DNA from: Aeromonas aquatica
Lineage (GTDB): Bacteria > Pseudomonadota > Gammaproteobacteria > Enterobacterales > Aeromonadaceae
Direction: 5' to 3'
DNA length: 64,000 nt
NCBI RefSeq assembly: GCF_000764655.1
Contig: NZ_JRGL01000017.1
Span: 1-64,000, forward strand
Made by a program: the position numbers and the translations under genes. The notes beneath the pieces were generated by a model, which worked only from the letters and a program-made list of their open reading frames with translations, was not told the origin of the DNA and searched no databases. Position 1 is the first letter of the stretch, and each line of letters starts with the position of its first letter. Of the stretch, positions 28,686 to 52,065 are shown one piece after another.

Positions 28686-28738
28686 GCAGCTCGTCGGTAT
28701 GGATCCCCATGATGGGACCGTGCCGACGCAGACCACCA
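28686..28738 (-). pseudogene. Degenerate duplicate of the phhB 3' end
   Basis: Starting immediately after the phhB stop, 53 bases repeat the last ~18 codons of phhB (28747-28799) at roughly 64 percent identity, with a perfect 13-base block coding DEL. The native frame reads GLRRHGPIMGIHTDELL against [17 protein letters not shown]. The period is 61 bases, so it is out of frame with phhB, and it lacks the stop. Non-functional as a gene. Confidence 0.65.
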
Positions 28739-29077
28739 TTATCTGGGCAGCTCGTCGGTGCGCGCCGCCATGATGAAGTCGTTGCGGTGCAATCCACCGA
28801 TCTTGTGGGTCCACCAGCTGACGGTCACCTTGCCCCACTCGGTCAGGATCGCCGGGTGATGGAACTCCGCCTCCGCCAGCTCACCGAGCCGGTTGGTGAA
28901 GGCGAGCGCCTCCTTGAAGTTGCGAAACGCAAACTCCCGGCGCAGTTGCAGCTCCCCGTTCACCACCAGGGGCTGCCAGTCGGGGATGAGATGCATCAGC
29001 TCGGCCAGCTCCTCGTCGCTGACTTTCGGGGCATCGGCACGGCACGCTTCGCACTGTTGGCTTGCCAGTTCGGACAT
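28739..29077 (-). CDS. phhB: Pterin-4a-carbinolamine dehydratase
   Basis: Regenerates the pterin cofactor used by phenylalanine hydroxylase. 112 aa. Conserved [16 protein letters not shown] and the active-site region [19 protein letters not shown] (catalytic histidines) are present. AAAGGAG precedes ATG 29077. Second gene of phhAB, 51 bases after phhA. Followed by a degenerate copy of its own 3' end and then a terminator. Confidence 0.95.
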
Positions 29078-29128
29078 TCGGGACTCCTTTCGTTGATAAA
29101 TCGTGGGAAACTGGGCGAGGCGCAGCCT

Positions 29129-29950
29129 TCAGCTCGCCTGCTTGCCCGCATGTTGACTGACACCGGGCACGAAGCGCGGGGCATGCAGGCCGAGGCGGCG
29201 GGCCTCCCCCACCATGGCCATGATGTCCTGATCCGCCAGCCGATAGAGCTCATCGAGCTGCGGCAGGACAAAATAGATGGGTTGCATGATGTCGATGCGA
29301 TAGGGGGTGCGCAGCACCTCTATGGGATCAAACGGCTGCAACACTGGCACGCCTCCGAGGGCATAGGCGGTCTCACCGATGGAGGAGAGAATGCCGCCAC
29401 CATAGATGCGCAGCCCCTCATTTCCCTCTGCCAGCTCCCCCTGCACCAGGCCAAACTCCACCGTGAACCAGTAGAGGCGCGCCAGATAGACCCTGTCCTC
29501 CTTGCTCGCCTTCTGGCCGAGCTGGCCATAGACATGGGTGAAGTGGGCGAACGCCGGGTTGGTCAACATGGCGCAGTGGCCAAACAACTCGTGAAAGATG
29601 TCGGGCTCCTGCAGGTAGTCGAGCTCGTCCCGGCGCCGGATGAAGGTGGCGACCGGGAACTGGCGGTTGGCCAGCAGCGAGAAGAAGCGATCGAAGGAGA
29701 TGAGCGCCGGCACGGCCACCACGGACCAGCCGGTGGCGGGTTGCAGCACGGCATTGATCTCACCGAGCTGCGGAATGCGATCCAGGGGCAGGTTGAGGCG
29801 CGCCAGCCCCGTCAGGTATTGGTCACAGGCCTTGCCCTCCAGCGCCGCGAGCTGGCGCTCGATCAGGATCTGCCAGGTGCCGTGCTCCTCATCCCGATAG
29901 TGGATGACGCCCTGCTCGTCCGCTTGATGTGCTGTGTAGAGGCTTGCCAT
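29129..29950 (-). CDS. phhA: Phenylalanine 4-monooxygenase
   Basis: Non-heme iron, tetrahydropterin-dependent enzyme converting phenylalanine to tyrosine. About 273 aa, as for bacterial PhhA. The iron ligands are the two histidines of HELFGHCAML and the glutamate of TVEFGLVQ; the pterin-binding QEPDIFHE is intact. ATG 29950 is preferred to the in-frame GTG 29968. With phhB and tyrR nearby this is the usual aromatic-catabolism arrangement; a TyrR box is expected upstream but I could not identify a good one. Confidence 0.94.
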   Translation of the reverse strand: MASLYTAHQADEQGVIHYRDEEHGTWQILIERQLAALEGKACDQYLTGLARLNLPLDRIPQLGEINAVLQPATGWSVVAVPALISFDRFFSLLANRQFPVATFIRRRDELDYLQEPDIFHELFGHCAMLTNPAFAHFTHVYGQLGQKASKEDRVYLARLYWFTVEFGLVQGELAEGNEGLRIYGGGILSSIGETAYALGGVPVLQPFDPIEVLRTPYRIDIMQPIYFVLPQLDELYRLADQDIMAMVGEARRLGLHAPRFVPGVSQHAGKQAS

Positions 29951-30065
29951 GATCCCGTTCCATCCCACCCCACTGGGGCGCCTTTGCGTTGGTCTGTTTA
30001 CGCAGGTCTGTTGGTACAGGCCTGTCTGTAAAGGTCTATGGGATCACTGTAACGGTTTGCCCCCT

Positions 30066-48971: not shown

Positions 48972-48987
48972 CGTTACCAGCGCGGGC

Positions 48988-50283
48988 TTAGCCGATGTGG
49001 CTCAGGCCGCCCATGTAGGACTGCAGCGCCGCCGGGATGGCGATGCGGCCGTCTTCCTGCTGATAGTTCTCGATCACCGCCACCAGGGTGCGACCCACTG
49101 CCAGACCGGAGCCGTTCAGGGTGTGCAGCAGCTGGGGCTTGCCATCGATGCGCACCCGGGCCTGCATGCGGCGGGCCTGGAAGTCGGTGCAGTTGGAGAC
49201 GGAGGAGATCTCGCGGTAGGTGTTCTGAGCCGGCAGCCAGACTTCCAGATCGTAGGTCTTGGCGGCGCAGAAGCCCATGTCGCCGGTGGCCAGCGCCATC
49301 ACGCGATACGGCAGCTCCAGCAGTTGCAGCACCTTCTCGGCGTGACCGGCCATCTCTTCCAGGGCATCCCAGGATTTCTCCGGGTGCACCAGCTGCACCA
49401 TCTCGACCTTGTCGAACTGGTGCATGCGGATCAGACCCCGGGTGTCACGGCCATAAGAACCGGCTTCGGAACGGAAGCAGGGGCTGTGGGCCGTCATCTT
49501 GATGGGCAGTTCCTGCTCGTCGAAGATCTCGTCGCGGGCCATGTTGGTGAGCGGCACTTCGGAGGTCGGGATCAGGGAGAACTTGCGCAGCTTGCCCTCT
49601 TCTTCCCCTTCACCCTCGATCCCCGTGTTGAACAGGTCTTCGGAGAACTTCGGCAGCTGACCGGTGCCGTACAGGCTGTCCGGGTTCACCAGGTAGGGCA
49701 CGTAGCACTCGGTGTAGCCGTGCTGCAGGGTGTGCAGGTCCAGCATGAACTGCGCCAGGGCGCGGTGCAGGCGGGCAATCTGCCCCTTCATCACCACGAA
49801 GCGGGCACCGGCGAGCTTGACGCCGTTCTTGAAGTCCACGCCCTTGGCCGCTTCACCGAGATCGATGTGATCCCGTACCGGGAAGTCAAACACGCGCGGG
49901 GTGCCCCAGCGGCGCACTTCCACGTTGTCGTTCTCGTCGCGGCCCACCGGGGTGGTCTCGCTCGGCAGGTTGGGGATGGCGTCGGAGATGGCCTTGATCT
50001 CGGTCAGCAGGGACTCGAGTTCGACCTTGCTGGTCTCCAGCTCGTCGTTGATCTTGGTCACCTCGGCCTTGAGCGGGGCCACATCTTCACCACGACGGGC
50101 CGCCTCACCGATGGACTTGGAGCGGGCGTTGCGCTCGGCCTGCAGCTCCTGGGTGCGGGACTGCAGATCCTTGCGTTTCTCTTCCAGAGCGTTGACAGCC
50201 GCTACGTCCAAAACGTAGCCACGTGTCGCCAGACGAGCGGCAGCCTCGGCGATATCGCTGCGCAGATATTTGGGATCCAGCAT
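48988..50283 (-). CDS. serS: Seryl-tRNA synthetase
   Basis: Class II synthetase charging tRNA-Ser. 431 aa. N-terminal tRNA-binding coiled-coil (~25-110); motif 2 region [21 protein letters not shown]; motif 3 [19 protein letters not shown]. Gene order lolA-rarA-serS is as in other gammaproteobacteria. Confidence 0.98.
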
Positions 50284-50587
50284 GGTTTACCTACTTTTTT
50301 TAATGGGATCTGGCCTGGGTTATCCGCCCTGGCGAGAAAACAGATCCGGAAGTTAACATCGGTTGGCGCACCCCTGTCGTCTTTGAGTATCGGGCCGTGA
50401 ACATCCGGCCTTCAAAATCAAGAAGATGGCACCAGGCCAAGACAAACGGGGTCAGAGGGGCAGTGTAGCAGACCGCCCCCCTGCCCGAACAGGGCGTATT
50501 GCTGTCGTTTTTACCAAGTTTGGGGGGGCAGGCAGGCCAAACTTCGGCGATCCGATCGATTGGGATGCCAATGTTCAAATCGGAAAC
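50284..50587. other. Gap between rarA and serS
   Basis: 304 bases with no ORF I would support. Holds an 8-bp inverted repeat AAGTTTGG (50516-50523)/CCAAACTT (50537-50544) just past rarA without a T tract, and presumably the serS promoter. Confidence 0.4.
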
Positions 50588-51925
50588 CTATTTGTCTCTT
50601 TTGCGCGGGCTCTGGCGGTCGAGATCGCGCAGGTAATCGAGCTTCTGGCCGATCTGCTTCTCCAGGCCCCGCTCCGTTGGCTGGTAGTAGTGCTTGCCGG
50701 CGAGCTCGGGGGGGAAGTAGCTCTCACCCGCCGCGTAGGCACCGGGCTCGTCGTGGGCATAGCGGTATTCGGCGCCGTAGCCGAGCTCGCTCATCAGCTT
50801 GGTCGGCGCGTTGCGCAGGTGCGGTGGCACCTCGAAGTCCGGCAGGTTTTTGGCGTCATGGAGCGCCGCCTTCCAGGCGGTGTAGACCGCATTGCTCTTG
50901 GGGGCGCAGGCGAGGTAGACGATGGCCTGGGCGATGGCCCGCTCCCCCTCCGCCGGGCCGATGCGATGGAAACAGTCCCAGGCCGACAGCGCCACCTGCA
51001 TGGCGCGGGGATCGGCGTTGCCCACGTCTTCCGAAGCGATGGCCAGCAGCCGGCGGGCAATATAGAGGGGATCGCAGCCGGCGCTCACCATGCGGGCATA
51101 CCAATAGAGGGCCGCATCCGGCGCCGAGCCACGAATGGACTTGTGCACCGCCGAGATGAGGTCGTAGAAGTGATCCCCGCCCTTGTCGAAGCGCGCCACG
51201 TGCTCCCCCACCACGGCGGCGAGCAGGGCGCTGTCGATGACTCGCTCCCCTGCCCCCTTGGCCTCGGCCATGTCGGCCAGGAGCTCGAGATAGTTGAGGG
51301 ACTTGCGCCCGTCGCCGTCCACTGCCTTGGCCAGCGCCTCCTTTACCCCGGGGGCGAAGGCCAACGTCGGATCATTGAGGCCGCGCGGATCGGTCAGGGC
51401 CTGATCGATCATGGCGAGGATGTCCTCCTCCTCCAGCCTCTTCAGCAGGTAGACCCGGGCGCGGGAGAGCAGCGCGTTGTTGAGCTCGAACGAGGGGTTT
51501 TCGGTGGTGGCGCCGATGAAGGTGATGGTGCCGTCTTCGATGTGGGGCAGGAACACATCCTGCTGACTCTTGTTGAAGCGGTGCACCTCGTCCACGAACA
51601 GGATGGTGCGCACCCCGCGCCAGCTGTTCTCCTTCGCCTTGTCGATGGCGGCGCGGATCTCCTTGATGCCGGAGGTGACCGCGGAGAGGCGCTCCACCTC
51701 GGCCTGACAATAGTGCGCCATCAGCTCGGCGAGGGTGGTTTTGCCGGTACCCGGGGGGCCCCACAGGATCATGGAGTGGCAGTGGCCGGCCAGGATGGCT
51801 TTGCGCAGGGGCTTGTCAGCCCCCAGGATATGCTGCTGACCTATGTACTGATCGAGATTCTGCGGCCGCATCCTGGCCGCCAGCGGGCGAAAGTCGGACG
51901 AGAAGTCCAGCGACAGGTTGCTCAT
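50588..51925 (-). CDS. rarA: Replication-associated recombination protein A
   Basis: AAA+ clamp-loader-like ATPase (MgsA/RarA) acting at stalled forks. 445 aa. Walker [10 protein letters not shown] (~55-63), Walker [17 protein letters not shown], sensor [15 protein letters not shown] 51925 overlaps the stop of the bridging mini-ORF (TGATG). Its first ~17 codons are repeated twice upstream in that ORF. Confidence 0.96.
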
Positions 51926-52065
51926 CAGCCTCGGTCATCCAGCTTGGGGCGGGCCGCCAGCAGGTGACAGCCCGACGAAAAATCCAACGATAGGTCGCTC
52001 ACCCGCGTGGTGCGAGCCGCCAACATGCGACAGCCCGACAAGAAATCCAGGGATGAGCAGCACAT
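51925..52065 (-). CDS. Bridging mini-ORF between lolA and rarA (46 aa)
   Basis: Begins on TGATG with the lolA stop and ends on TGATG with the rarA start. It holds two degenerate copies of the rarA head ([15 protein letters not shown] and [17 protein letters not shown] against [17 protein letters not shown]) and finishes KLDDRG like the lolA end TLDDQR. Total period 140 bases. No distinct domain; interpreted as repeated duplication of the lolA/rarA junction kept open for translational coupling. Confidence 0.6.

Follow-up and report, generated by a model that had tools for sequence, protein, structure and literature searches.

Six operon junctions within a 64,000-nucleotide stretch of Aeromonas aquatica DNA (the window) carry inserts that are crossed by short ORFs, and this bridging recurs at the same junctions of related genomes, in inserts of dissimilar sequence. 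The best explanation, to which we assign a probability of about 0.8, is that junction duplications are kept only where termination-reinitiation survives. The bridging of all six junctions, pspB/pspC, sapA/sapB, sapB/sapC, sapC/sapD, sapD/sapF and lolA/rarA, had been reported in an earlier note made from the window alone and holds in every case, each of the six gaps being crossed by one or two ORFs (6/6).

The pspB/pspC mini-ORF (33183..33284, minus strand) has 33 codons and an ATGA overlap at each end, and its insert (33187-33280, minus strand) includes a copy of the pspB tail at approximately 33187-33260 (57/69, p=0.002). At sapA/sapB, a mini-ORF of 26 codons (37139..37219, plus strand) begins with GTG, with an ATG next at 37145, and its stop lies 2 nt ahead of sapB; the source of this insert (37143-37221, plus strand) is unrecognisable, neither a tail copy (p=0.45) nor a head copy (p=0.61) of the flanking genes being found with 500 shuffles. 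The longest mini-ORF, 97 codons at sapB/sapC (38165..38458, plus strand), starts within sapB and ends 11 nt into sapC. Its insert (38182-38447, plus strand) contains two additional copies of the sapB tail, spaced by 117 nt (64/72, p=0.002). The sapC/sapD insert (39342-39545, plus strand) is crossed by two successive mini-ORFs of 40 codons (39341..39463, plus strand) and 27 codons (39463..39546, plus strand), both with an ATG start and with TGATG at each end; the first includes a copy of the sapC tail at approximately 39396-39463 on the plus strand (58/65, p=0.002). The sapD/sapF mini-ORF (40541..40699, plus strand; 52 codons) has ATGA at its start and a GTGA overlap with the sapF GTG at 40696, one of two candidate sapF starts, the other being the ATG at 40648. 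Its insert (40545-40695, plus strand) carries a sapD tail copy at approximately 40572-40624 (40/53, p=0.002). Finally, the lolA/rarA mini-ORF (51925..52065, minus strand; 46 codons) has TGATG at each end, and its insert (51926-52064, minus strand) holds a copy of the rarA head at approximately 51952-52001 (40/50, p=0.002).

At every step a start codon lies a few nucleotides from the preceding stop, at sapB/sapC only via an ancestral overlap of 11-17 nt. The earlier note had placed all ORF ends within two bases of the flanking stop and start. This fails for sapB/sapC, where the ORF begins 14 nt upstream of the sapB stop codon and runs 11 nt into sapC, the geometry being that of the ancestral overlap. 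When the gaps are freely shuffled by dinucleotides, the probability of a bridge is 0.471 for pspB/pspC, 0.012 for sapA/sapB, 0.279 for sapB/sapC, 0.083 for sapC/sapD, 0.218 for sapD/sapF and 0.257 for lolA/rarA. The product is approximately 7e-6, and approximately 1e-3 when the shuffling keeps the 9-nt edges and frees the frame. Of 99 gene starts, 82 follow a Shine-Dalgarno-like word, as do 42 of 110 mini-ORF starts, compared to approximately 21% in shuffles. The proposal of the earlier note that copies with the ribosome site are conserved best is plausible, whereas for its statement on the decay of head copies too few such copies can be recognised. Scans of positions 37100-41600 for promoters (2 sites, 1.0 expected) and terminators (3 sites, 1.5 expected) gave results near chance, and an Rfam search of positions 28000-53000 found no family. 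Only one of these five sites, promoter-like and on the opposite strand (40640-40667), lies within an insert.

That five of the six inserts contain copies of flanking gene ends was confirmed: they are the tails of pspB, sapB, sapC and sapD and the head of rarA, each at a p value of 0.002 that is the floor of 500 shuffles. The proposed order of these copies, downstream head followed by upstream tail, did not hold up in the window, where at p<=0.01 four inserts have a tail copy, one has a head copy and no junction has both. The clearest head-then-tail insert is that of a relative, at sapC/sapD of A. fluvialis (head p=0.01, tail p=0.02), and the order is mostly unproven. Across all genomes surveyed, a duplication source is recognisable in 8 of 27 insert clusters, together comprising 63 of 105 inserts, with the caveat that the best member of each cluster was used, which inflates significance; in the other 19 clusters the source is unrecognisable. 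For the eight clusters the data support an origin by tandem duplication of a junction segment, which may also be the source of the others.

Compared to the tight state of relatives, the inserts measure 98 nt (pspB/pspC), 77 nt (sapA/sapB), 205 nt (sapC/sapD, 122+83), 155 nt (sapD/sapF) and 140 nt (lolA/rarA). As had been claimed, the values 98, 77, 122, 83, 155 and 140 each leave a remainder of 2 on division by 3, but 140 and 155 are composite and not single periods. The lolA/rarA insert consists of a 77-nt unit, which is all that A. eucrenophila carries, plus an internal 63 nt, and the sapD/sapF inserts of relatives measure 38, 59, 140, 146 and 245 nt, values that are multiples of 3 apart. 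The 2-mod-3 regularity is a special case of a broader rule, by which a unit has the same residue modulo 3 as the stop-to-start offset. Gaps of -4, -1 and +2 thus call for 2 mod 3 and the sapB/sapC overlap for 1 mod 3, and a mini-ORF grows further by multiples of 3. Among the 24 nearest-neighbour comparisons in which lengths differ, the difference is a multiple of 3 in 18, 2 mod 3 (whole units) in six and 1 mod 3 in none. The rule is obeyed by net length changes only and not by single alignment gaps, which among related inserts have residue 0 in 23, residue 1 in 11 and residue 2 in 10 cases. Tallies of offsets modulo 3 derived from gapped local alignments are left out of these results, because such alignments give inexact periods.

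A survey of the six junctions covered 26 Aeromonas genomes besides the window and counted inserts of at least 25 nt. Two criteria are reported, since the wide one (-20 to +8) was chosen after sapB/sapC had been seen; in this scoring sapB/sapC was assessed by the wide criterion alone. The survey recovered 105 inserts, 103 of which are bridged by the wide and 99 by the narrow criterion, while two are fused in frame to SapF. Shuffling predicts 33.6 or 39.3 bridged inserts. The junctions had been picked for being bridged in the window, and it is therefore the tests without window inserts or window genes that carry weight. In 21 clusters unlike the window inserts, represented by one member each, all 21 are bridged or fused by the wide criterion (10.9 expected, P 8.2e-10) and 20 by the narrow one (8.4 expected, P 7.6e-13), P values that treat sequence clusters as largely independent events. 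Moreover, the bridge is kept despite substitution in 65 of 66 nearest-neighbour comparisons (42.5 expected), even as the peptide sequences change. The pspB/pspC insert is absent (gap -4) from 17 of 24 genomes, 16 of the 27 have sapA/sapB only 1-3 nt apart, and the outgroup junctions are tight, which supports a tight ancestral state.

Not every operon junction follows this pattern: three neighbouring ones grew without bridging beyond chance. By the narrow criterion, enlarged junctions are bridged in 0 of 13 cases at phhA/phhB (0.1 expected), in 1 of 22 at ycjX/ycjF (1.6 expected) and in 3 of 20, the window among them, at pspC/ycjX (2.2 expected). All three are nonetheless tight in some basal species. 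pspA/pspB was never enlarged, its gap being 3 in all 24 genomes.

Other gene pairs were sampled in five 400-kb Aeromonas stretches by comparing orthologous junctions, leaving out rows with window genes and two misannotated rows, in which the reference gap is -160. Where an enlarged junction has a tight counterpart in a relative, it is bridged in 18 of 18 cases by the wide (10.06 expected, P 1.9e-6) and in 11 of 18 by the narrow criterion (6.12 expected, P 0.006), whereas enlarged junctions that are loose in all relatives stay near expectation (wide 5/19, 5.12 expected; narrow 2/19, 2.88 expected). One of the 18 rows (G035, pair 26/27), whose projected start is not a start codon, counts solely through an in-frame-fusion test that was added after two sapD/sapF inserts turned out to extend SapF; without this test the counts are 10 narrow and 17 wide. 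Before start repairs and exclusions, the tight-derived class comprised 30 enlargements in 17 pairs (narrow 16, 5.6 expected; wide 24, 11.0 expected) and the loose class 31 enlargements in 18 pairs (narrow 4, 3.0 expected; wide 13, 8.9 expected). The gene caller places some starts wrongly: sapD/sapF of G035, G062 and G049 appeared unbridged from a wrong projected start and is bridged to another one. In scans of single genomes, the excess of bridged gaps (40-299 nt) that would follow from the earlier note is seen in G035 (15, 7.5 expected) and G049 (16, 7.1 expected), is small in G062 (8, 5.2 expected) and does not appear in G041 (2, 4.4 expected) or G061 (3, 5.0 expected). This single-genome scan is weak because ordinary intergenic regions dominate it, and the comparison of orthologous junctions is sharper.

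Could the mini-ORFs instead keep the mRNA of a new gap covered by ribosomes against Rho or RNases, exact reinitiation being incidental? Such shielding also predicts open, translated inserts and is compatible with all sequence tests presented here. However, pspC/ycjX, ycjX/ycjF and phhA/phhB tolerate untranslated gaps of 50-170 nt, and junctions that are loose in all relatives tolerate untranslated gaps as well, so that shielding is not a general need, nor does it require exact stop-start contact at both ends; we consider it unlikely, albeit the most serious competitor. Much less probable is that the mini-ORFs are functional small proteins whose frame is kept for the peptide. Their dN/dS values range from 0.25 to 1.08 over ten sets, compared to 0.01-0.24 for the flanking genes (one further value is undefined, and one of 1.30, for pspC, is an artefact of unaligned indels), meaning that purifying selection on the peptides is below gene level. 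Six sets at 0.25-0.56, together with tail-derived portions that still resemble the parent gene end, fit a protein function, and mild constraint on peptide or RNA is possible; four sets at 0.81-1.08, unrelated peptides at the same junction of different species, and a Pfam search of the seven window mini-ORFs that gave no match of note speak against it. Peptide constraint on the mini-ORFs is weak.

A mobile element resembling the mycobacterial interspersed repetitive units (MIRUs), inserted at stop-start overlaps with a coupled ORF of its own, would account for the like architecture, the similar unit size and the tandem copies. Yet blastn (E 1e-3) detected no similarity between inserts of different junctions among the 105, two window inserts searched against their own whole genome match only themselves and the adjoining gene end, and the units hold local gene ends, which argues for duplication and leaves this origin hardly credible. 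Chance is equally improbable. GC-rich inserts are often open, the probability for a single insert reaching 0.96 (short sapB/sapC and sapD/sapF inserts), the earlier note would have selected bridged ones, and three neighbouring junctions are bridged at chance level only; nevertheless, leaving out the window inserts or the window gene pairs still yields P values of 8e-10 and 2e-6.

Selection for the passage of ribosomes from gene to gene, which the earlier note had invoked, therefore remains our preferred reading, in line with bridging in dissimilar inserts, its retention against substitution, frame-keeping lengths, weak peptide constraint, tight ancestry and an unbridged control class, but it does not extend to phhA/phhB, pspC/ycjX and ycjX/ycjF. 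The starting state would be coupled operon junctions whose stop and start overlap or lie 1-2 nt apart, and which in Aeromonas would have been enlarged repeatedly, often by duplication of a junction segment. A ribosome leaving the first gene would come upon a start codon within the insert and translate from there up to a stop at the start of the second gene. Because termination-reinitiation fails over gaps of approximately 20 nt, an enlarged junction would be functional only if bridged in this way; the unit size would have to equal the stop-to-start offset modulo 3, and subsequent growth would occur in threes. Each mini-ORF would act as a relay, its peptide being of little or no consequence. 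Judging from their sequences, the mini-ORFs are probably translated and reinitiation is the likely selected trait; the subunit balance of the Sap transporter might be such a trait.

We lean, with some reserve, towards a hitherto undescribed mode of operon evolution, in which part of Aeromonas re-duplicates coupled junctions chromosome-wide and selection for termination-reinitiation filters the duplications by reading frame, leaving one to three fast-changing relay ORFs per junction that need no peptide function, with the number of units possibly tuning downstream expression. Whether operon genes are coupled is usually judged from overlap statistics or reporter measurements; here, natural insertions serve as the experiment. 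Junctions that seemingly need coupling retained it over gaps of 60-340 nt, while at others the gap drifted. Should this hold, it would provide a sequence test for gene pairs under selection for coupling and an origin for new bacterial small ORFs whose peptides need not have a function, with a bearing on small-protein annotation and studies of new genes, as well as ready material to measure the number of consecutive reinitiation steps per ribosome.

The open-access literature searched, a scope outside which most subscription papers and preprints lie, yielded no description of junction duplications subject to a frame filter. Overlapping gene pairs that are coupled by termination-reinitiation share the -4 and -1 geometry of Aeromonas junctions, and in reporters coupling is lost over approximately 20 nt (Huber et al. 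2023, PMC10666635); therefore, an unbridged insert would uncouple the genes. That study deals with direct overlaps, its main text containing none of the terms 'small ORF', 'duplicat' or 'insertion'. The short ORF mgtQ of Salmonella likewise lies between two genes of an operon, mgtC and mgtB, and promotes translation of the downstream one, but going by the headings of that report (PMC8092293) it is a single regulatory ORF acting via RNA structure and particular acidic codons, with neither recurrent insertion nor a length rule. Mycobacteria have coupled small ORFs whose RTGA link to the following gene persists although their peptides are not conserved (Shell et al. 2015, PMC4633059). The Aeromonas mini-ORFs have in common with them that coupling is retained and the peptide is not; the mycobacterial ORFs are leading ORFs upstream of a gene, backed by RNA and ribosome-profiling data, whereas those of Aeromonas lie between two operon genes, make the bridge at both ends and are presumed to be translated. 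The closest precedent is the MIRUs (Supply et al. 1997, as described in the review PMC12548453). As in MIRUs, the end of the insert ORF is coupled to the following gene (103/105 wide, 99/105 narrow), but MIRUs form one interspersed, apparently mobile family, whereas the Aeromonas inserts are junction-specific sequences, many units of which copy local gene ends.

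The earlier note had claimed that six gene junctions of the window (pspB/pspC, sapA/sapB, sapB/sapC, sapC/sapD, sapD/sapF and lolA/rarA) are duplications filled by in-frame mini-ORFs. All six gaps are indeed spanned, by single mini-ORFs of 33 (pspB/pspC), 26 (sapA/sapB), 97 (sapB/sapC), 52 (sapD/sapF) and 46 codons (lolA/rarA), and at sapC/sapD by two of 41 and 28 codons if read from a TTG overlapping the stop, or of 40 and 27 when the following ATG is taken as the start. The joint chance of six bridges is about 7e-6 in free gap shuffles and about 1e-3 in shuffles that keep the edges. 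The reported copies of flanking gene ends are likewise found in five of the six inserts (p=0.002 each), none being recognised at sapA/sapB. Among gene starts, 82 of 99 have a Shine-Dalgarno-like word in front of them, and among mini-ORF starts 42 of 110 (shuffles, about 21%), as fits mini-ORFs that depend more on reinitiation than on their own ribosome sites. The window's setting is an Aeromonas chromosome (contig C79 of its own assembly). Its PspB, PspC (TIGR02978), SapA and LolA pass the NCBIfam cut-offs; SapB, SapC, SapD and SapF have Sap models as top matches, with scores under the cut-offs, and the name RarA reflects sub-threshold similarity only (235 bits versus a cut-off of 570).

Across another 26 Aeromonas genomes, these junctions occur in a tight state or with enlargements of many different lengths. 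Together with the window they provide 159 junction-genome cases, 105 of which show gaps of 25 nt or more. When the mini-ORF was required to start between -1 and +5 from the stop (-20 to +8 at sapB/sapC), 99 of the 105 inserts are bridged, and 103 by a wider criterion, compared to 39.3 expected from free shuffles or 33.6 with the edges kept. The remaining two, at sapD/sapF of A. lacus and A. enteropelogenes (loci L018 and L023), are in-frame N-terminal extensions of SapF. By similarity the inserts form 27 clusters, 19 of them without a recognisable source. Taking one random member from each of the 21 clusters that lack the window, 20 are bridged narrowly or fused (8.4 expected) and 21 by the wide criterion (10.9 expected). 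On the sap-gene tree, the six junctions together require at least 22 changes between the enlarged and the tight state and at least 68 between length states. All six junctions of A. aquatica are unlike those of A. eucrenophila CECT 4224, despite a 100% match of SapC. A 106-nt pspB/pspC insert is common to A. fluvialis, A. finlandensis and A. caviae, and inserts have likely been exchanged between species.

Outside the genus, sap junctions overlap or have gaps of at most 3 nt in eight Photobacterium loci, in the 400-kb stretch G081 from another Aeromonadaceae genus and in one E. coli genome. The pspB/pspC overlap is 16-19 nt in Photobacterium and 16 nt in G081; lolA/rarA stands at -1 in all eight other Aeromonadaceae loci examined and at +9 in G081. 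In A. diversa and A. simiae, which are basal on the tree, the five psp and sap junctions are tight and the lolA/rarA gaps are 7 and 8 nt. A 65-nt sapA/sapB gap in a gammaproteobacterial MAG proved to be a start-projection error, as the sequence has an ATG 2 nt past the stop.

Insert sizes were measured against the tight state of each junction. The value of 2 mod 3 proposed in the earlier note holds for most insert sizes: 62, 65, 80, 83, 119 and 128 nt at sapC/sapD (one unit; two units, 205 and 211, 1 mod 3; three units, 339, 0 mod 3), 59, 65, 71, 74 and 77 at sapA/sapB, 98 and 110 at pspB/pspC (two units, 196), 32, 74, 77, 83, 125, 140 and 149 at lolA/rarA (two units, 154), and 38, 59, 86, 104, 140, 146, 155 and 245 at sapD/sapF, where fusions measure 36 and 60 nt. 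Other residues occur in sapA/sapB inserts of 118 and 172 nt (1 mod 3), single ORFs with a different end spacing, and at sapB/sapC, whose step from -17 or -11 to +35 adds 52 or 46 nt, the 1 mod 3 demanded there by a start offset of -14 or -8; all eight distinct larger sapB/sapC gaps differ by multiples of 3. The general pattern is that a new relay unit equals the offset from stop to start modulo 3, with growth inside the relay going by multiples of 3. Bridged by the wide criterion only are a 100-nt sapD/sapF insert of A. bivalvium and lolA/rarA inserts of 76, 153 and, in one case, 149 nt; the sizes 76 and 153 would fit the loss of one base from 77 and 154. Near-identical tandem units occur at 38182-38447 of the window (117), at sapC/sapD of a relative (L007; 128) and, with repeated peptides, at sapD/sapF of the Aeromonas stretches G035 and G049, and suggest recent, VNTR-like copy-number change.

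Nearest-neighbour trees of related inserts provided 66 comparisons starting from a bridged insert, with 923 substitutions summed from the rows (974 including untested edges). The bridge is retained in 65, where random substitution predicts 42.5, and the sole loss, lolA/rarA of A. popoffii, is still bridged by the wide criterion. Length differs in 24 comparisons, by multiples of 3 in 18, by 2 mod 3 in six and by 1 mod 3 in none; individual gaps in the alignments follow this less neatly (23, 11 and 10 over residues 0, 1 and 2). The dN/dS of the mini-ORFs is 0.25-1.08 in ten sets and at least 0.8 in four; that of the flanking genes is 0.01-0.24, save for an artefact (1.30) and a second value that is undefined. 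The reading frame is retained, the protein weakly or not at all.

Three neighbouring junctions have become enlarged with no more narrow bridging than chance predicts, namely phhA/phhB (0/13; 0.1 expected), ycjX/ycjF (1/22; 1.6) and pspC/ycjX (3/20; 2.2), with 0, 9 and 9 bridged when wider limits are allowed, and their lengths fall in all three residue classes. Tight forms exist, at -4 for phhA/phhB in A. diversa and at -4 or -1 for pspC/ycjX in four species. In the window these gaps (pspC/ycjX, 32714-32781; ycjX/ycjF, 31252-31306; phhA/phhB, 29078-29128) are enlarged relative to some basal species; the first could also be parsed into three successive ORFs of 3, 18 and 4 codons, a chain that we take for chance. 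Some junctions therefore lose coupling and drift. The pspA/pspB gap (33518-33520), which adjoins the variable pspB/pspC junction, stays at 3 nt in 24 of 24 genomes and is enlarged in none. The ycjF tail is copied right after its own stop (30141-30262; 44-nt alignment, period 78, 0 mod 3, p=0.001), without a close co-directional gene downstream. The phhB tail is copied beyond its own stop (28683-28798; 55-nt alignment, period 61, 1 mod 3, p=0.001), so that gene-tail copies also arise where coupling is not at stake.

Across 400-kb stretches of five Aeromonas genomes and the window, 232 co-directional pairs are comparable; 78 of them have a tight form in one or more genomes, and 17 of these are enlarged elsewhere. 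Once the window's genes and two misannotated rows are set aside, the pairs that are tight in a relative show 18 enlargements at 12 pairs. All 18 are bridged or fused under the wide criterion and 11 under the narrow one (10.06 and 6.12 expected); counting one enlargement per pair, it is 12 and eight of 12 (6.32 and 3.71 expected). Pairs that are loose in every genome compared give 19 enlargements at 13 pairs, of which five and two are bridged (5.12 and 2.88 expected). Size differences over residues 0, 1 and 2 number 1, 4 and 13 in the former and 7, 6 and 6 in the latter. Gene-tail copies follow operon genes in G035 (10/132), G049 (4/126), G062 (2/127), G061 (1/145), G041 (0/126) and the window (2/30), and in 0/118 cases in G081. 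At convergent ends the counts are 1/80, 0/82, 1/90, 0/81, 1/100, 0/14 and 0/74 in the same order, ahead of distant co-directional genes 2/93 (one each in G062 and G049), and in mid-gene controls 0/1366, with none in shuffles. The G041 and G061 stretches have no excess of bridged gaps, and the junction-enlarging process is uneven across the genus.

In E. coli and Haloferax, reinitiation is nearly gone across about 20 nt (PMC10666635); genes separated by an unbridged insert of 60-340 nt would thus be uncoupled. Duplication of an overlapping stop/start junction in the right frame would create a second overlap, and between the two the downstream head and upstream tail would be fused into a relay ORF predicted, from sequence, to be translated. 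Only one residue class of duplication sizes would form a relay, which could later change freely except in frame and stops. Small ORFs that are coupled but have unconserved peptides are already known in leader positions (PMC4633059), and Salmonella has an intergenic ORF that promotes the next gene (PMC8092293). The apparent novelty lies in the recurrent, locus-specific origin of the inserts together with a length filter; no account of such inserts was found in the open-access literature searched. MIRU elements have the same architecture, but they are one interspersed family and the Aeromonas inserts are not.
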